From: Erythrobasidium yunnanense
Taxonomy: Eukaryota > Basidiomycota > Cystobasidiomycetes > Erythrobasidiales > Erythrobasidiaceae
Direction of reading: 5' to 3'
NCBI GenBank assembly: GCA_001600175.1
Contig: BCJC01000005.1
Location: forward strand, 662,471-726,470
DNA: 64,000 nt
The notes under the pieces are model-generated. The model ran no database searches and was not told where the DNA came from. It saw only the letters and a list, made by a program, of their open reading frames with translations. The position numbers and the translations under genes were made by a program. Positions 11,697 to 23,307 of this stretch are shown in pieces (position 1 is the stretch's first letter; every line of letters starts with the position of its first letter).

Positions 11697-13885
11697 ATGG
11701 CTCGTAGTCCAGCTGCTGCAGATGCAGAGACGCTGGTCGAGACACAGTCGCCGGAGCATCAACAGATAGCGAAAGCCGATCCAAAGCTAGGGCAAGCTCT
11801 TAAGAAGGAGAATGTTCAAGTTGGTGGTCTCTTAGTACGGCTAGGAAGACAAGCTGACGACTTCTGGCAGGTTTCCGGTACACAAGACGGCGCAATTTAT
11901 CTCAAGAACAGTCCTTCTGATCCATCAGCACCACGCGCTTGGCCCAAATGGAAAAGATACTGTATCGTCGGTCTGGCAGCTTGGACGAATAATGCAAGCT
12001 TCCTGGAAAGTCTTCATAGACAAACAGGCGCGCTAACAGTTATTGTTTGCAGGTCGTAACTATCGGCGTAAACAGCTGGGCACCAGCGACCGAAGAAATA
12101 CAAGAACGCTTTGGCGTGTCATCCGAGATAGGGACCCTGAGCGTCGTTATGTTCGTTGCTGGTTTCGCTATAGGTAAGCTCCTTTCGTCAACATCAGCAT
12201 AATCAGTGATCGTAATCAGTGAGGCTGATGACTTCCTAGGACCGCTGCTGTGTGCTCCATTATCCGAGTTTTACGGGAGAAGACCCGTCTATCTCATTTT
12301 CTGGGCCTTTTACACTGTCTTCTGGATCGGGCTCGCTTTGTCACCTAACATTGGTTCAGTACTTGTCTTCCGTCTTCTGCTTGGTTTCTTCGGCTCCATT
12401 CCCCTTGCGAACGTGGGAGGAATTGTCCACGATCTGTTCACGCAGCACGAGTGCGGATACGCGGTTGCACTTTACGCGCTCAGTAGCACTGACGGTCCCC
12501 CTTTCGGAAATGCTGTTGGAGGTAGGATCATCCTATCTATCGTGCCCATCCGGCCATTCTTTGATACTGAGCGGCGATCTACAGGCTTTCTGGCTCAGCA
12601 ACAAGGCTATAAATGGGTCTGCTGGTTCAACCTTATTCTAGCCGGAGTGATGTGGATTGTACTCTTCTTCTGCCTGCCCGAGACCAGAGATACCATACTG
12701 CTCATGCGCCAAGCCAAGAGGTTGCGTGAAGAGACAGGAAACCAGGAGATCTATGCAGAGCATGAGAAGAGCAGGAACTCCAAAGGCCACTTCTACAAGG
12801 TTTCTTTGGTCAGACCGCTCAAGTTCTTCTGTGAGTAGAAGGGATCCGCCCATTCGACATAGCTGAAAGTGAAAACAGTCACCGAGCCGATCACATATGC
12901 GTGTGCTTTGATCAATGCATAGTGAGCATTGAGCTCGTCAGATATTCGATATCAGCAGCAACTGACAATGACCTTTAGCACCTATGCCATCATATTCATG
13001 GTAAATAGTACTACCGAGATGGTTTGTCAGTGCCGTACTGATGGTGTGATCTAGTCCAACGAAGCTTTCCCCCTCATCTTCGGCCCTGGAAATGGTGGAC
13101 ACGGCTGGACACACACCGGAGTAATCCAACTGACGTATCTAGCCTACGTAGTTGGAGCAGTACTTGGTTTCTGCCTTCAGCCTATTCAGGAGTATTTCTA
13201 CCGCAGAGGATACAAGAACAAGCGAAAGCCTGAGCTGCGATGGGTACTGTCGTGCTATACAGTCGCGCTTATGCCTATTGGCTTTATGATTGGTGAGTTT
13301 GTCGCTTCTGAACGATCTTGCGCACCTCTGACTTAACGTATGCTTGGCCATGTACAGCTGCATGGACATCGTACGCCAGGATCACGTATTTTGGTCCGCT
13401 CATCGGGTTCTGTATCTTTGCAATCGGATTCTTCGGGATTATCAATAGTATACTCAATTACGTGGTGAGCTTTGAAAATCGTCAGACTATCTTGCACAAG
13501 CTGAAAATTGGAGATCTGCCAGGTCGACGCTTGTGAGCCGCACGGACAGTGGATACATTACTTGGCTGATGCTTTCTATAGACGGGCACTTTGCTGCATC
13601 GGCTCTAGCTGCAGTCGTTTCAGTCCGAAACATAGCTGGAGGTGAGCTGGGCTTCGCTTCTCGAAGCGTCGGCCAGAGAGCTCAGTATGAAGCTCTTCTA
13701 TCGCAGCCGGCTTCCCGCTCTTCGCAAGACAGATGTTCGAAAGGCTTGGCAACCAGTGGGCTCTCTTTCTGCTGGCGATGCTGAGCTGCTTTATGGTTCC
13801 TGTCCCATTCTGGCTTTTATACCGAGGAGACAGAGTACGGAAGGCCAGTCCGTACTGCAGAGAGCACTTTGAAGATGAGGAGTAG
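11697..13885 (+). CDS. MFS transporter, polyamine/TPO-like (DHA1)
   Basis: Twelve-helix exporter. Landmarks: VNSWAPATEEI, GPLLCAPLSEFYGRRPVYL (motif A region), RLLLGFFGSIPLANVGG, CLPETRDT, and a C-terminal VRNIAG...MFERLGNQWALFLL. The first intron (11994-12052) starts with GC, not GT: AAT|GCAAGC. Only this donor keeps the frame into VVTIGVNSW. A 10-nt exon at 13523-13532 is needed to read NYVVDAYGHFAASALAAVVS. Further introns follow at 12174-12239 and several places after. The last exon ends at TAG 13883-13885. An alternative in-frame ATG lies at 11682. Likely substrate polyamines or drugs, from the subfamily only. Confidence 0.88.
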
Positions 13886-14074
13886 ATTAGCGGCACGCCG
13901 TCTCCATGTAGCATATCATTCTTGTTGTCCCAGTCAAACCACCCCAATGTATCCGAGAACTGCTTCTTCTATCTCCATTGCGGCCCGATAAATTGAAGCG
14001 CTACTGCTGTCCATTCATATACCCATATTGGATCCCTGCTATACCCACCCGCTCTGTCTCAATAACGAGTGCGC

Positions 14075-16339
14075 ATGTCCAAGTTCCGCCGACCCATCTT
14101 CGTCAACCCTGAGGCTGCCAGCTTCCGGCTAGACTGCTCGCCAGCAGACTCTGAAGCCTTATCACGCTTCCATGCTAGCCTTCCGGACTATGCTCAGACT
14201 CCACTGGTAGCTCTGTCCGACCTTGCGGAAGAGCTTGGTGTGAAAGGCGTCTTCATCAAGGATGAAAGCCAGCGCTTTGGGTTGCCGTCTTTCAAGATTT
14301 TGGGTGCTTCATGGGGCGTCTACCGCGCTCTGTGTACGCGGTTCCAGCTTCCTCTCGACACTCCGCTGCCAGACCTTGCGGAGAAAGCCAAAGATATCAA
14401 GCTGTATGCAACTACAGATGGCAATCATGGGAGAGCAGTCGCAAGAATGGCAAAGTGCCTCAATATTAAATGCGATATCTATGTCCCGAAGACGCTGGAT
14501 ACGTATACTAAGGGTCTCATTGCAAGCGAAGGACCAGAAGTCATCGTCAGCATGGGAGATTACGACTTTGCAGTAAAAGAGGCTTTTGACGCCGCTGGAA
14601 ACGACAAGAACGGCATTCTTATCCAAGATACTGCCTTCGAGGGTTACACCGAGATTCCAGAATGGATCGTTGACGGATATGCTGCTATGCTCAAAGAAGC
14701 AGATACACAGCTTGAAGAGCTTGGTCTACACGCAACGGCAATAGTGACGCCCGTCGGTGTTGGCTCCTTAGCACACGCAGTGGTCAAACATGCCAAAGCC
14801 GCAAATCCTCCAAGAACGGTAGTGGCAGTTGAGCCAGACACCGCCGCTTGTATCCACAAGAGCCTACTTGCTGGAAAAGCCACATCAATCCTCACCTCAT
14901 ACACGACCATGACAGGCATGGAGTGCGGGAGCCCTTCCTCCACAGCGTGGCCAGACTTGCAGAAAGGTCTTGACACTTCCGTAACAATATCGGATTTTGA
15001 AAGCCACCAAGCTTTACAATATCTACATGAGAAGAAGGTCAATGCAGGGCCGTGTGGGTCGGGAACCCTAGCAGGAATTAGGCGTTTAAGAGCCAATTCA
15101 GACCTACTTTCGCCTGATAGCGTAGTAGTACCCCTCTCCACAGAAGGCTATCGACCATACAAGACACCGCTGGATGTCTCGAATGACGATTGTGTCAGGC
15201 TTACTCAGCAACTCGTCAGTATCAACTCAAGCAATGTCACACTATCCGAAGAGCCGGGAGCAGGCGAGGTGGAGATCGCTGGCTTTGTCGCTGCTTGGCT
15301 TGAGCACAGAGGCATCGAAACACACTGGGTGGAGGGAAACCCTGGTCGGCCCTCTGTCATTGGTGTAGTGCGAGGTTCAGGAGGTGGTAAATCGCTAATG
15401 CTGAATGGCCATATCGATACCGTCAGTCTTGCAGGGTACAAAGGAGATGCCCTATCCGGAAGAAGGGTGAAGTATCAAGGCAAGGACGTCATAGAGGGCA
15501 GAGGTGGACAGGATATGAAGGCCGGCGTCGCAGCTGGAATGGCTACCCTCCTCGAGGCGAAGGCACTTGGAGATAAGCTGAAGGGAGATGCCATTTTGGC
15601 TGCTGTTTCAGATGAAGAAGACGCCTCGCTTGGCACGCAGGACATCATCAAAGCGGGCTGGAAAGCAGATGCTGCAATAATCGTGGAGCCTACCGATCTG
15701 AAGGTCGGAGTATCGCATAAGGGCTTCGTATGGATCGAGATCGAAGTGCTGGGTGTCGCTGCACACGGCTCGCGCCCTGCAGATGGAGTGGACGCAATCA
15801 TGAATACGTCTTACGTCCTTGATAGCTTGAGACAGTATTCGAGCGAGCTGCCCACACACGATACCATTGGAAAAGCTTCTCTACACTGTGGTAGGGTACA
15901 CGGTGGCACAGAAACCTCTACCTACCCTGGTTCCTGCAAGATGACCGTCGAGTTCCGCACAATCCCGTTACAAACGCCAGAACAGCTTTTGCAAGACATG
16001 AATCAGATGCTAAAAGACATTTCGCAAAAGCATGCAGAGTTCAAGCATGCGGATCCGAAGCTACTGCTTGATAGACCAGCATACGAGCTGGACATGGACA
16101 GCCAGCTTGCGAAACTAGCGAAAGATGTGCTTGTGACGAAGGACAAAGCAAGGAACGAAGATGTCGTATCTGTGAGCTTCTGGTGCGATGCTGCATTGTT
16201 AGGAGAAGCTGGGACACCTTCGGTTGTCTTGGGACCAGTCGGTGGAGGGCTTCACTCAGAGTACGAATGGGTGGAGGTGGACAGTATCATAGAGACCGAG
16301 AGGAGATTAGTCGCGTTCATGAACAAATTCTGTTGCTAG
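14075..16339 (+). CDS. Fusion of diaminopropionate ammonia-lyase and M20 metallo-deacetylase
   Basis: One intronless 754-residue frame with two enzymes. Residues about 1-365 are a fold-type II PLP enzyme of the diaminopropionate ammonia-lyase type: KDESQRFGLPSFKILG holds the PLP lysine, and ATTDGNHGRAVA, QDTAFEGYTEIPEWI and the GVGSL loop follow. Residues about 370-754 are an M20 peptidase/ArgE-DapE deacetylase: metal ligands and base in NGHIDTV, GGQDMKAG, SDEEDASLGT, VEPTD and GGLHSEYE, plus the lid domain around AAHGSRPADG. All key residues of both halves are present, so both may be active. In E. coli ygeX and ygeY encode these two activities side by side, which suggests linked steps (inference). 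The start codon is ATG 14075. Confidence 0.9.
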   Translation: MSKFRRPIFVNPEAASFRLDCSPADSEALSRFHASLPDYAQTPLVALSDLAEELGVKGVFIKDESQRFGLPSFKILGASWGVYRALCTRFQLPLDTPLPDLAEKAKDIKLYATTDGNHGRAVARMAKCLNIKCDIYVPKTLDTYTKGLIASEGPEVIVSMGDYDFAVKEAFDAAGNDKNGILIQDTAFEGYTEIPEWIVDGYAAMLKEADTQLEELGLHATAIVTPVGVGSLAHAVVKHAKAANPPRTVVAVEPDTAACIHKSLLAGKATSILTSYTTMTGMECGSPSSTAWPDLQKGLDTSVTISDFESHQALQYLHEKKVNAGPCGSGTLAGIRRLRANSDLLSPDSVVVPLSTEGYRPYKTPLDVSNDDCVRLTQQLVSINSSNVTLSEEPGAGEVEIAGFVAAWLEHRGIETHWVEGNPGRPSVIGVVRGSGGGKSLMLNGHIDTVSLAGYKGDALSGRRVKYQGKDVIEGRGGQDMKAGVAAGMATLLEAKALGDKLKGDAILAAVSDEEDASLGTQDIIKAGWKADAAIIVEPTDLKVGVSHKGFVWIEIEVLGVAAHGSRPADGVDAIMNTSYVLDSLRQYSSELPTHDTIGKASLHCGRVHGGTETSTYPGSCKMTVEFRTIPLQTPEQLLQDMNQMLKDISQKHAEFKHADPKLLLDRPAYELDMDSQLAKLAKDVLVTKDKARNEDVVSVSFWCDAALLGEAGTPSVVLGPVGGGLHSEYEWVEVDSIIETERRLVAFMNKFCC

Positions 16340-17620: not shown

Positions 17621-20344
17621 TCAGAAGGAATCCCATCTCTGCAGGCAGACAGCCGGTCATTAGCGAGTTCAGCGGATCACAGCTAGTGGAAGAACGGTAC
17701 TGACATTTTGCGAAAGCGCTATCAGTCTGTTGAACATTTCGTCTCTTCTTGGCATAGCCGTCAGAGTAATGTTTTCACCATCGGCAGTCACCAATGACAT
17801 GCCATCGATGATTTCCATCCCAAGACCTCCGCCTAAGACAAGCTTGCTCTTCCAGCCCAAACCCCCTAGCTTCTTCAGCTGAACTATGTCTTGTAATTGT
17901 ATGGAGAACTTGGGATCGAAGTCTTTGGTTCCAGGTAGCTTGTTGTCCTTGACCCAGGCTATACAGGGCGTCGTTGCGGAAGTTGACTGAAGACACGGTG
18001 TAAGAAGCAACATCAGCATGCCTGAGTAGTGGACAAACACAGGCTTTGTGTTGTTCGCCCTCACGCCACTGACTATGAGAGCCCAGCCTTTCTTTCCATC
18101 GTGTCTGCACCTAAACATCGATGGCCCGTCGACATAGTTGCGCTTTCGGAGAACACCTTGTCGTTCTTTCGAGTGCTGACTGCCAGCTTGCGCCTTGACT
18201 CTGTCCGCACCCATGACGGCTGAGACTGTCGTCTTTGCTGTACCCTTGAGGAACCCGAGGAAGCGATGCTTCTTGTGCTTGCCGGCTTCCGTGTTCGTCG
18301 CTGTAGGGCTGTTGTCTTCGACTGCACTCTTGCTCAGATCGTCACCGGCATATTCGTGGTCGTGCGACAGGTCCCGCTCAGCTGTGTCTGGGTTGACGGG
18401 CGGTAGATCATCTTCGAGCGTAGGGGAAGGTGATCGCGTAGGAGCCTCTCCCTCATACTGAGGCGGAGGCGGCAGCGGTGTGTTATGATCTTCGCCAATG
18501 CGAAGCAAAGTCAGAGCTAATTGGTTGTTCGATGGGACTCCCTTGAGCAGCGTGCTGTGTAAAGAAGGCAAGATCAAAGAACGCACTTCACGACATGACG
18601 AGCTCAAACGGCCTACTTCTGAATCAGCAGGAGTTCCTTCCAGTTTGGATAGTTTGTCGTAAACCAATGCCAGCCTTTGCTTATGTATGGCTGGGAGAAG
18701 AAGCCAAGACCCATGAAGAGCGTAGCGCCGCGTGCCATATATTGAACCTTGACAAACATGAAGAGCAATGCCACGGGAAGCAAGATCGCTGCCAGACGGA
18801 TCCTTGGCAAATGTTCGGGGTACGGGTGCGTGGGCGAAAGAGCGTTTGCGAGCCGCTCATAGTTGTCGCAGGCATCTTCGAGACCCCGCATGGTAGGACG
18901 CATAGCTTTCCAGATGGAGTCCACAACCGGGTCCTTCGCTCGTTGTAGATGCTTGTCTTGGCCTCCAGCAGCCTTGTTCTGAGCTTCTCCCCCACTAATA
19001 ATGACGTCCGTAGGATCAGGTATAGCGCTGTCAAGCTTCGTCTTCTTGCTCGACTGATCGTAATCCTTCTCCGGGGCTTTGCCGATGGCGGTGGCAGTCG
19101 CGACGGATGCAATGCCGTTCACGAAGTTGGTAGCCTCATTCTCGACGGCTTCGCCTTTGTGCGCTTCAGAGGCACCGGTTAAGCTTGATCTCAATGTCCG
19201 TAAGCCAGCGTCATCAGACGGCTTCTTAGCAGAGAAAAGTTATATCTTACCTGTCTTTCGAGCCAACTTTGTTACCGGCTTTAGGCTTTTGCAAACCTCC
19301 TGAACTGGCGCTCATCATCGATAGAGGAGCCGGAGGGAAGATGTAGTGTCGAGAAGGAGGGTAGACCATAAGAAGGATGATCAGACCGACCAGCAAAAGG
19401 CCGACTTGTGCGAACAGCCAGAATGTAAAATAGATCTGAAGGCACATAATGCTTTAGCGGAGCGAGGCTGATATCGGCCGAGTCCACTACTCACTGCACA
19501 CCAGGTGGCCGTCCTGTTGAACTCGTTCCATGACCGCACGCGCTGTATATGTTTGAAGAATCCAGCAGCTCCGATGCCCTGATCTCACAACTCAGTCTCG
19601 CAGTCAGGCTGAGATCTAATGCATAACTCACGAAATTGATGTATACCCGCTCTAGATTCGATCTTAGCCTGTCAGGACTGAATTCCTCGTCTTCCGAATT
19701 GACCAGATCCATTTCGAGTTCAGGCCAGAGTCCACGCTTCCTACCGTCTGTTGTAGCTTTGACGTGGTACATCTGCTTGTCAAAGCGTCTGATAACCTTC
19801 CATAGTTCATCATTCTCGATACCTTTGACTGTTCAGGGCGGATAACGACATCAGTCGCTGAGCTTATCGTACTGGACTGCTGCCTACCTAGCTCTTTTGG
19901 CACCTCGTCTGGATGACTCCATGTATTGTAAGTATCTGCATCCAGCGCTTCGGTCTCGGCCGTATCGTGCTGCTTGACGAGACCGCCAGTATCGATATCT
20001 TGAGGCTTGACAGGCTGCGCGTCGAGCTGTTTCTTTTGCTCATGCTGCTCGTTTGTCAGAGTCGCAACGCCGAGTTCTTGCGCTACATGGACATGCGATA
20101 CTCCTGTGCCTTCAACGTAGTCGCTCGCGGCGCCTGTTTTCGCAGCTTCAACCGCAGAAAGGCCGACTGGTCGAGCTGCTGTGGCCGATAACGCTGGGTC
20201 TGATGCCGGAACTACGACTGGAGCTTGAGCTGGTGCTACCGCGACTGCTGGCTGCTGCGCGACATCTCGATGACCTGCCGCTGCTGTTTCTTGGGCCATT
20301 TCTGCGGCCGCAATGTCTGTTCGCGTAGGTCGCGGTTCAGCCAT
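17621..20344 (-). CDS. DUF3292 membrane protein, tandem copy A
   Basis: Fungal integral membrane protein of the DUF3292 family; function unknown. Eight exons on the complement: 19888-20344, 19632-19828, 19495-19578, 19251-19435, 18617-19189, 18074-18554, 17705-17986 and 17621-17638, giving 758 residues. Order: Ala/Pro-rich N-terminus, IENDELWKVIRRFDKQ, helical pair near IYFTFWLFAQVGLL, a second pair near LAAILLPVALLFMFV, a Pro-rich linker, and a C-terminal half with a PH/GRAM-like feel. The last exon encodes only RWDSF. The intron 18555-18616 is absent from copy B, which otherwise has the same exon borders. Head-to-tail with copy B. Confidence 0.87.
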
Positions 20345-20690
20345 GCTAGATCTGAACACTGGCTATGTGTACAATGAAGCTGAAACGAGATGAAAACCAA
20401 GAAAGCAGACCTTTTAAAGTTTTCACAACAGCAGCGCCGACATCATGACATCATGCATTCCGTGAACCGGACATGCTTTGCTGAGGTGAGATTGCTCTGG
20501 TGCTGAAAGCTGACTGCACAATGTCTGTATGGCTCTCGTAAAAGCCGGTAAGATTGCAGCTGACATGTACCTTGGAAGAGTAAACATGGCGAGCAGGAGA
20601 GCACATACAGCTATCGTGTATCGGCTGAATGTATTGCTTCTCCAGCCTATGACCCGTACCAAAGGGCGTATATTATAACTGAAAAAGTCT
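20345..20690. other. Spacer between the two DUF3292 genes
   Basis: About 345 bp. It serves as promoter of copy A and downstream region of copy B. No gene seen. Confidence 0.5.
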
Positions 20691-23307
20691 TCAAAAGGAA
20701 TCCCATCTCTGTAGCACGATATCAATTACTTGCGCTATAGCAAACAGAGAGAAGGCGAACTCACATTCTGCGAGAGCGCTATGAGTCTGTTGAACATCTC
20801 GTCCCTCCGTGCTATATCTTTCAGCGTGATCGTCTCGCCATTGGTCTTGACCAGCCTCATGCCATCGACAATGTCTATACCCATGCCGCTCACTGCAAGC
20901 TGGCTCTTCCAACCGAGACCTCCTACTTTCTTTAGCTCAGCAACATCTGTTAGCTGTACTGAAAATTTAGGCATCGTGTCTTCCGCGCCCGGTAGCTTGT
21001 TATCCTTCATCCAGGCCAGGTAAGGGTTAGTAGCGGAATTTGACTGTAGTGAATGAGGCGGAGCAGTCGTCAGCAATTCTACACCCTAAGGTTTCATCAG
21101 ATTCGCCCAACTAACGATGAGGACCCAGCCTTGCTTTCCATCGCTTTTACACCTAAATGTAGACGGGCCGTCAACATAGTCTTTTCTGCTGGAGATGCTT
21201 TGTCGTAGCTTCGACTGTTGGGTTTCAATCTTTGTCTTGACTTTATCAACATTCTTGACCGCCGAGACTGCTGTTTTCGCTGTGCTCCTTAAGAAGCCTA
21301 AGATTCGCTGCTTCTTCTGCTTGATGCGCCCCTGTTTTGAGTTCTCGTCGTCCATGACGCTCGTCTCCTGATCGCCCTCGATATACTCGTTGTCATTCGA
21401 AAGGTCTCGTGCAGCTGTATCCGGATTGACAGGAGGCAGATCGTCTTCAAGGGTAGGCGATGGTGACCGTGTCGGAGGTTGGCCGATATATTGCGGAGGA
21501 GGAGGTAGCGGTGTATTGTACTTTTCGCCGATACGTAATAAGGTGAGTGCCAGCTGGCTGTTTGATGGAACACCCTTGAGTAAGGTGCGCTGAAGCGATA
21601 TCGAGTCCTTCCAGTCCGGGTGGTTTGTGATGTACCATTGCCACGCTTTGTTCATATAAGGCTGAGAGAAGAAACCGAGTCCCAAGAAGAGAGTAGCCCC
21701 ACGAACCAAGTATTGGGCCTTGACAAACGTAAAGACCAGAGCAATTGGAAGCAAGACTGCTGCCAGTCGGATCCTAGGCAGATGCTGAGGGTAGGCAGAT
21801 GTGGGATCGAGAGCGTTGGCCAAGCGTTCGTAATTATCGCAAGTCTGCTGCAGACCTTTCAAGGCTATCGTTATGAAAGGAGGATGCATGGCTTTCGAGA
21901 TGGCTTGGATAACCGGAGCTTTGGCCGCATCTTCGTTCCTGTTCTGGCCATCCGCGACGTCGTTCTGTGCTTCGTCCACAACAGACGTAACATCCCTAAG
22001 GTCTGGTATGCCATCTAGCGCAGTGTCCTTGCTCGACTCGTTGACGGCAACTGCACTGATGACAGACGCCAGGCCTTTGATGAAGTGCATAGCCTCGTTT
22101 TCGACGGCTTCGCCTTTGTGTGCTTCAGGTGCGCCAGTCAAGCTTGCCCTCAATGTCAGTAAACGCTCGGTAATTGGGCCGGGTCCAGGTGGCGCACCTG
22201 TCTTTCGAGCCTACTTTATCACCTGCTGCAGGCTTTTGCAGGCCTCCAGACGTGGCGCTCACCGCGGCTAGAGGAGCTTGAGGGAAGATGGTCCGCCGCG
22301 AGGGAGGATAGACTATGAGCAGGATCAAAACTCCGAATATCAAAAGGCCGACTAGAGCGAATAGCCAGAATGTGAAGTATACCTGCTCGGGCACACGAAA
22401 GGACATTCAGCATCGTGCGCAAGCAACTTGGCTAAGGTCATTTACCGCACACCAGGTAGCAGTTCTGTTGAATTCGTTCCAGGATCGCACACGTTGTATG
22501 TGCTTGACCACTGCCGCGCCTCCTACACCCTGATCAAACCGTCTCGTACCTCAGCATGCGGGGAATGAAGATGGGAATCGGAGCTCACGAAGCTGATATA
22601 CAACCGCTCTAGATTAAGTCTGATTCTGTCTGGGGTGTAGTCTTGTTCTTCAGAAGCGACCAGGTCCATCTCCAGCTCAGGTCGGAGTCCTCGTTTACGA
22701 CCGTCAGCCGTCGCCTTGACGTGGTAGACTTGCTTATCGAAACGTCTGATAATCTTCCACAGCTCATCGTTTTCGAGACCTCTCACTGGTTCAACGAGAA
22801 GAAGAACGGAGGATGGTAGAGGATCGGCTTATGCACACACGCTCGATTTGTTCAGAGTCAGTACTAACCCAGCTCTTTGGGTACTTGGTCTGAGTGAGTC
22901 CACGTGTTGAAGATATCTGGATCAAAGCTTTCTGCCTCGGCTATGTTGTGCTGCTTCACAAAACCGCCAGTATCGACGTCCTGAGGTCTGTCCGGCTGTG
23001 CTTCAAGCTGTTGCTTTTCTTCATACTGCTCATTTGTGAGTGTTGCAATGCCCAGTTCTTGCGCTACAGATGGATGCGAAACTCCAGTGCCATCGATCTG
23101 CTCGTTTGAGGCGCCTATTTTCGCAGCTTCAATTGCAGAAGTCCCATCTTGATTAGGTACAGCAGGTACAGCAGCTGCGAACGCTGGATCTGCCGACACA
23201 ACGACTGCTGGCGCTGGCGCTGTTGCGTAGGCGGAAAGCTGGGAATCGCGAATCTCTATATGGCCTTTCGGTGTCGTTAGATGAGCCATTTGCGGGGCGG
23301 TAGCCAT
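20691..23307 (-). CDS. DUF3292 membrane protein, tandem copy B
   Basis: Paralogue of copy A in the same orientation. Seven exons on the complement: 22869-23307, 22589-22785, 22446-22529, 22198-22382, 21116-22148, 20765-21043 and 20691-20708, giving 744 residues. Exons 2, 3, 4 and the last have exactly the same lengths as in copy A (197, 84, 185 and 18 nt). Shared blocks include LENDELWKIIRRFDKQ, HIQRVRSWNEFNRTATWCA, a cytosolic SLTGAPEAHKGEAVENEA block and LLKGVPSN. Both copies keep the transmembrane segments and the RWDSF end, so both look functional. The first intron (22786-22868) is longer than in copy A. Protein divergence is clear, so the duplication is not recent. Confidence 0.87.

Follow-up and report, generated by a model that had tools for sequence, protein, structure and literature searches.

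A predicted diaminopropionate ammonia-lyase joined to an ArgE/DapE-like M20 protein in one reading frame of the basidiomycete Erythrobasidium yunnanense

Does a fungal genome really encode, in one frame, a complete PLP lyase followed by a complete M20 enzyme, as a preliminary description of this locus had claimed, and what could two such domains do on a single chain? The locus lies on contig 5 of Erythrobasidium yunnanense, within the 64,000-nucleotide stretch that was analysed as a whole (the window; all gene positions of the fungus refer to it).

The fused gene and its surroundings

The gene is a single reading frame of 754 codons plus stop at 14075-16339 of the plus strand, with neither introns nor an internal stop codon. 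It begins with the ATG at 14075 and ends with the stop codon at 16337-16339, and the stop-to-stop frame that holds it opens at 14066, nine bases 5' of the ATG. The features discussed below are as follows.

11697..13885, plus strand: gene of an MFS transporter, interrupted by introns in several places (gene limits and introns placed by eye; MFS_1 match on frame 12203-12835)
14075..16339, plus strand: whole fused gene, 754 codons plus stop, uninterrupted
14075..15154, plus strand: diaminopropionate ammonia-lyase (DAPAL) half, residues 1-360 (Pfam, NF006058, AF2 model, matches to solved DAPAL structures)
14294..14296, plus strand: Lys74, aligned with Lys77 (the PLP lysine) of Escherichia coli DAPAL
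14417..14419, plus strand: Asp115, aligned with Asp120 of E. coli DAPAL
14627..14629, plus strand: Asp185, aligned with Asp189 of E. coli DAPAL
15155..15184, plus strand: junction, roughly residues 361-370, of low pLDDT in both half models
15185..16336, plus strand: M20 half, residues 371-754, with the M20_dimer insert at 546-651 (Pfam, AF2, Foldseek)
15410..15412, plus strand: His446, M20 metal ligand position, motif GHIDTV, invariant in 21 rows
15512..15514, plus strand: Asp480, M20 bridging ligand position, motif GRGGQDMK, invariant in 21 rows
15614..15619, plus strand: Glu514-Glu515, general base and metal ligand positions, motif DEE, invariant in 21 rows
15686..15688, plus strand: Glu538, M20 metal ligand position, motif VEPT, invariant in 21 rows
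16253..16255, plus strand: His727, M20 metal ligand position, motif GGGLHSE, invariant in 21 rows

A domain search had been proposed in the preliminary description, and it placed both PALP (residues 38-355; 168.5 bits against a cutoff of 35) and Peptidase_M20 (residues 442-750; 84.1 bits against 24.6) above their Pfam cutoffs, with M20_dimer at residues 546-651 (67.8 bits against 21). With E-values of 2.7e-49 and 1.6e-23, the Pfam matches cannot be due to chance. The claim of one frame with two complete enzymes was thus borne out by the 754 codons and both Pfam domains. When the fused protein was aligned together with unfused relatives, the M20 rows were misplaced, and structures were therefore predicted for each half separately. 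The AF2 models had a mean pLDDT of 92.9 for the DAPAL half and 88.6 for the M20 half; pLDDT fell below 50 at residues 365-375 in the former and 356-369 in the latter. Since both models lose confidence around residues 361-370, a short linker probably joins the halves.

In the genome (20.9 Mb, 10 contigs; four candidates scored), a full-length match was found at the locus of the fused gene only, and a second place gave a partial match of 26 bits. Fungal genes surround the fused gene on contig 5. The intron-bearing MFS transporter gene ends 189 bp upstream, and Sin1/CRIM, Tcp11, SPX and RCC1 domains occur in further frames of the window, consistent with a fungus; given these neighbours, the intron-bearing one just upstream included, bacterial contamination is not the explanation. 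Downstream, at 17669-22210 of the minus strand, lie three consecutive frames that match DUF3292, and their overlapping profile ranges suggest two adjacent DUF3292 genes.

The families of the two halves

The first half is best described as a DAPAL, with the corresponding activity predicted. On the DAPAL model NF006058 (PRK08206) the fused protein scored 279 bits against a curated cutoff of 276, a narrow pass, and it stayed below the cutoffs of the DAPAL subfamily model TIGR01747 (210.6 bits against 274) and of the YgeX equivalog TIGR03528 (217.3 bits against 532.25). Two bacterial partner DAPALs reached 297 and 345 bits on NF006058, and were likewise below cutoff on TIGR01747 (240.8 and 272.5 bits) and on TIGR03528. 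Among solved structures, the lyase half scored 177.8 bits with E. coli DAPAL but 42.2 bits with the top-scoring threonine deaminase, and when its model was searched with Foldseek, 14 DAPAL chains of E. coli and Salmonella ranked ahead of any dehydratase. With DAPAL matches ahead in both searches, a serine/threonine dehydratase was rejected for the first half, and its earlier assignment as a DAPAL was retained. In a 22-row alignment Lys74 and Asp185 were invariant and Asp115 was at least 90% conserved. Asp189 of the E. coli enzyme, the counterpart of Asp185, is taken by us to have a catalytic role. According to an excerpt of PMC4000059, Lys77 and Asp120 are potentially catalytic in E. coli DAPAL, and tags at the N-terminus reduce the activity of DAPAL; in the fused protein the N-terminus of the lyase is free and the M20 partner is attached at its C-terminal side.

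The second half is predicted to be an ArgE/DapE-like M20 protein and not one of the YgeY type. Its best curated model was that of the ArgE/DapE family deacylases, TIGR01910, with 178.6 bits, below the cutoff of 217.6; on the same model three of four bacterial M20 partner proteins passed, at 223-243 bits, and one missed, at 217.4. The YgeY models NF009555 (105.3 bits against 321) and TIGR03526 (76.3 bits against 321.5) were further from being reached, and the suggestion that this half is YgeY-like had to be given up. The best Foldseek matches of its model were DapE (7uoi) and ArgE (7rsf). H446, D480, E514, E515, E538 and H727 (numbered as alignment position plus 355) did not vary across the 21 rows of the alignment, of which the fungal protein is one, in agreement with the earlier statement that all metal ligands are kept; they are presumably the five metal-ligand positions and the catalytic Glu of the M20 family.

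Bacterial gene pairs and the origin of the fusion

When the whole fused protein was compared with plasmids by tblastn, the top matches were bacterial gene pairs, about 40% identical, in which a DAPAL gene adjoins that of an ArgE/DapE-type deacylase (Paenarthrobacter, Streptomyces and Deinococcus). Taken by itself, the M20 half was 39-43% identical to its 11 nearest plasmid records and 33% to the next, and a DAPAL gene lay within about 650 nt in 10 of these 11; in one of the ten, L012, the M20 match is spread over two frames. The exception is Mesorhizobium WSM4875. Its M20 relative (L016, 8956-10134; 43% identical) is preceded by a xanthine-dehydrogenase-type gene set and followed by the gene of a branched-chain amino acid ABC transporter substrate-binding protein. 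Genes of RidA and of an amino acid permease accompany the DAPAL-M20 pair in Paenarthrobacter and in two Streptomyces plasmids; a RidA beside the pair is expected if 2-aminoacrylate is made, and the fungal genome also contains RidA-family matches.

Bacterial and archaeal genomes were then scanned with the DAPAL half, and the best 80 of 565 loci were picked by likeness to it; 78 of these 80 were from Actinomycetota, to judge by their record titles. An M20 gene adjoined DAPAL in 19 of the best 80, in all 19 cases on the same strand and in the order DAPAL then M20. The spacing was within 200 bases in 18 of them (in one of them the M20 match is partial and lies where the contig stops) and 1352 bases in the other. 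No M20 neighbour was found in the remaining 61 of the best 80, some of which end at contig ends. Among 396 Actinomycetota genomes, seven had a match of at least 200 bits to the M20 half, and four of these seven adjoined a DAPAL gene, two in each gene order. All six Deinococcus pairs had M20 before DAPAL, the reverse of the fungal order. In three actinobacteria (L011, L086 and L030) both genes lie in one common frame, separated by one stop, so that the loss of this single stop would give the fungal layout. No bacterial fusion was found among the open reading frames of at least 100 amino acids in 128 loci outside the fungal genome (L011-L127 and L135-L145), searched with both profile models, nor did any single match extend over both halves in the 396 Actinomycetota genomes, 47 of which matched at E up to 1e-40, with the two best candidates per genome scored. 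A search of viral contigs gave no relative of the fused gene. Because relatives of both halves adjoin each other as separate bacterial genes, the pairing is meaningful.

Other neighbours of these genes were also recorded. In two actinobacterial metagenome-assembled genomes (L020, 3473-7246; L030, 3332-7274) the DAPAL-M20 pair lies downstream of an acetamidase/formamidase-type gene, which was assigned by Pfam in L020 and by the same cluster in L030, and putative transporter-like frames are found further upstream. Deinococcus ficus carries a run of M20, DAPAL and hydantoinase/carbamoylase genes (L013, 8980-12535). In Rhizobium ACO-34A (L136, 5899-9283) DAPAL is followed by a Zn hydrolase, which scores above the cutoffs of both the allantoate amidohydrolase and the hydantoinase/carbamoylase models, and by an N-carbamoyl-D-amino-acid hydrolase, with a dihydropyrimidinase nearby; in Shinella (L139, 6004-9610) DAPAL stands in a run with carbamoylase-type or M20 aminoacylase genes, and in Cetobacterium the run is DAPAL, YgeY, D-aminoacylase and SsnA. 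The gene contents of the D. ficus, Rhizobium and Shinella runs suggest a breakdown of ureido- or acyl-diaminopropionate. As bacteria place DAPAL next to carbamoylase- or aminoacylase-type enzymes, it may often work beside an amidohydrolase.

An acquisition from bacteria had been proposed, together with separate phylogenies of the halves, and the trees agreed with it for the DAPAL half and left the M20 half without a robust position. In the DAPAL tree (120 rows, reduced to 106 by similarity and to 57 by hand), the fungal half and 31 actinobacterial rows formed one side of a branch (100/97), a group size that reflects the selection of loci by likeness to the fungal DAPAL half. The far side held 25 rows, namely six of Deinococcus, one of Chlorobi, five plasmid rows from Proteobacteria and a fusobacterium, and 13 of Actinomycetota that come from the 396-genome sample; because these 13 are on the far side, the fungal DAPAL joins one actinobacterial kind and not the whole phylum. 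A grouping with Deinococcus was rejected (p 0.0002), the tested groups having been named after the first trees were known, and the placements of the fungal row inside or beside its 31 actinobacterial companions both stand (p 0.096). In the M20 tree (45 rows, reduced to 40 by score), the fungal half fell in a 36-row group (89/83) with 28 actinobacterial, six Deinococcus and one Mesorhizobium row, the size of which again reflects how loci were selected; the majority of its rows, not all, are paired with DAPAL. Grouping of the M20 half with the outgroup was not rejected (p 0.398; here too the groups were named once the first trees were known, and the 'actino' label in this test took in the Mesorhizobium row L016 by default). 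L099, a duplicate, was excluded from the rows, as were M20 pieces that were short or weak. Both fungal halves are on long branches, and the fused gene is the sole fungal sequence in either tree. The placement of the DAPAL half would fit a transfer from bacteria. The GC, GC3 and codon usage of the fused gene were unremarkable beside those of 11 neighbouring coding pieces, so that composition gave no signature of recent transfer and no support for one; with such native codon usage, any transfer was not recent.

A two-step reading, its alternatives and known systems

Judged from its sequence, the fused protein is probably a one-chain, two-step catabolic enzyme for capped diaminopropionate, derived from an actinobacterial-type DAPAL-M20 pair. 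The C-terminal M20 half, as a two-metal amidohydrolase of the ArgE/DapE kind, would strip the N-acyl or N-carbamoyl group off a capped 2,3-diaminopropionate, and the N-terminal PLP half would then eliminate ammonia from the freed amino acid, the aminoacrylate product giving pyruvate and a second ammonia. Most likely an actinobacterial-type gene pair would have entered a fungal ancestor, the stop between the two genes would have been lost, and the codon usage of the transferred gene would since have become host-like. Two complete domains with their active-site residues in one frame, and the recurrent adjacency of related bacterial genes, are observed; the activities, the order of the steps, the substrate, the transfer and the origin by stop loss are what we infer. 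The consecutive action put forward in the preliminary description gains from these pairs of related proteins and from a published precedent, since an excerpt of PMC12507026 reports the conversion of albizziin to pyruvate with E. coli YgeY and YgeX. Several results were counted against the two-step reading: the M20 half is below the TIGR01910 cutoff and lacks a robust tree position, 61 of the best 80 of 565 DAPAL loci have no M20 neighbour, just four of seven genomes with an M20 match of at least 200 bits among the 396 Actinomycetota have the pair, two of the four in reversed order, as in Deinococcus, and 13 of the 25 DAPAL rows across the branch from the fungal half are themselves actinobacterial. 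The fusion is real and intact, and its two-step rationale is sound. A wider proposal, tentative and somewhat doubtful, is that fungi gained a complete route for the breakdown of capped diaminopropionate from actinobacteria and fused it, with a short linker passing the amino acid between the active sites, as the missing catabolic counterpart to the diaminopropionate chemistry of ascomycetes; if so, the caps would be of plant or microbial kinds, for example a ureido or acyl group or a peptide linkage.

A more specific version of the two-step reading has a ureido group as the cap: with albizziin or 2-ureido-3-aminopropionate as substrate, the M20 half would be a decarbamoylase that takes the place of YgeY but comes from a different M20 subfamily. 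On ureido cleavage, a later commentary (PMC12990295) remarks that groups differ in its order. The coupling of YgeY and YgeX on albizziin (PMC12507026, in the excerpt cited) speaks for it, as do the carbamoylase-type enzymes beside DAPAL in D. ficus and Rhizobium ACO-34A and the Cetobacterium run. However, the M20 half scores better on the ArgE/DapE model (178.6 bits) than on the YgeY models (105 and 76 bits), and the acetamidase/formamidase-type gene upstream of the pair in L020 and L030 could equally indicate acyl or formyl caps. We regard a specifically ureido cap as unlikely. On another reading, which is rather improbable, the substrates of the two halves have nothing to do with each other: the PLP half would remove other amino acids such as D-serine, the M20 half would be a dipeptidase or an unspecific deacylase, and the fusion would do no more than couple their expression. 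M20 and PALP are broad families, the M20 half is under the curated ArgE/DapE cutoff and bacterial relatives of either half occur without the other adjoining, but a like M20 gene adjoins DAPAL in both Actinomycetota and Deinococcus, and in both orders. The long tree branches of both halves might point to a decaying or non-functional fusion, or to a frame that is spliced or processed into separate proteins; against this, the frame of 754 codons is open, the tested catalytic positions are kept, codon usage is native and both halves gave confident AF2 models, which leaves such a state very improbable.

Membership of an E. coli-style reductive uric-acid route, in which YgeX and YgeY act according to the excerpt of PMC12507026, is hardly credible and was rejected on the gene content of the fungus. 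Its genome (20.9 Mb, 10 contigs) gave no match to PF02738 (xanthine-dehydrogenase-type subunit) or to PF01014 (uricase), and matches far under cutoff only to the SsnA and hydantoinase/carbamoylase models. An allantoicase was found on contig 3 in several pieces, and the search can thus detect an interrupted purine gene, though short exons may still escape it. Oxidative purine breakdown may lack its upper part in this genome. With uricase and PF02738 unmatched and SsnA below cutoff, imported or own capped diaminopropionate is a more likely source than uric acid.

Returning to the two-step reading, the existence of the fusion speaks for a connection between the two activities and leads back to a bacterial pair, of a DAPAL and a distinct kind of M20 protein, that is common to Actinomycetota and Deinococcus. 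A literature search by titles and the beginnings of abstracts gave, among the papers listed, no description of a fungal DAPAL, of a DAPAL-M20 fusion, or of the pair of DAPAL and a distinct M20 gene in Actinomycetota or Deinococcus. A simple pyruvate assay with one purified protein could find the capped substrate. The gene also bears on how fungi handle diaminopropionate, the biosynthesis of which in fungi was reported in 2025 (PMC12751119, in excerpt). The Fda3/Fda4 enzymes of Fusarium poae described there likewise concern diaminopropionate, in ascomycetes, but they serve biosynthesis toward a peptide product and are different enzymes, whereas the fusion would serve breakdown.

Of the bacterial systems, YgeX and YgeY of the E. 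coli uric-acid cluster (excerpt of PMC12507026) are likewise a DAPAL and an M20 enzyme acting in succession; they belong to other subfamilies than the fungal halves and are encoded by separate genes, and none of the upstream uric-acid enzymes that were tested was above cutoff in the fungus. The M20-DAPAL pair of Deinococcus has a related M20 protein, up to 44% identical to the fungal half, next to a DAPAL, but its gene order is reversed, and its DAPAL does not fall into the same group as that of the fungus. The pair of Paenarthrobacter sp. YJN-5 (WP_193594531/WP_193594532, DAPAL and ArgE/DapE deacylase) aligns over nearly its full length at about 38-45% identity and, like the fungal gene, has DAPAL before M20 in the same frame, with one stop between them; it gives two separate proteins where the fungus has one chain. 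The fungal gene thus represents a bacterial gene pair in fused form and no novel kind of system.
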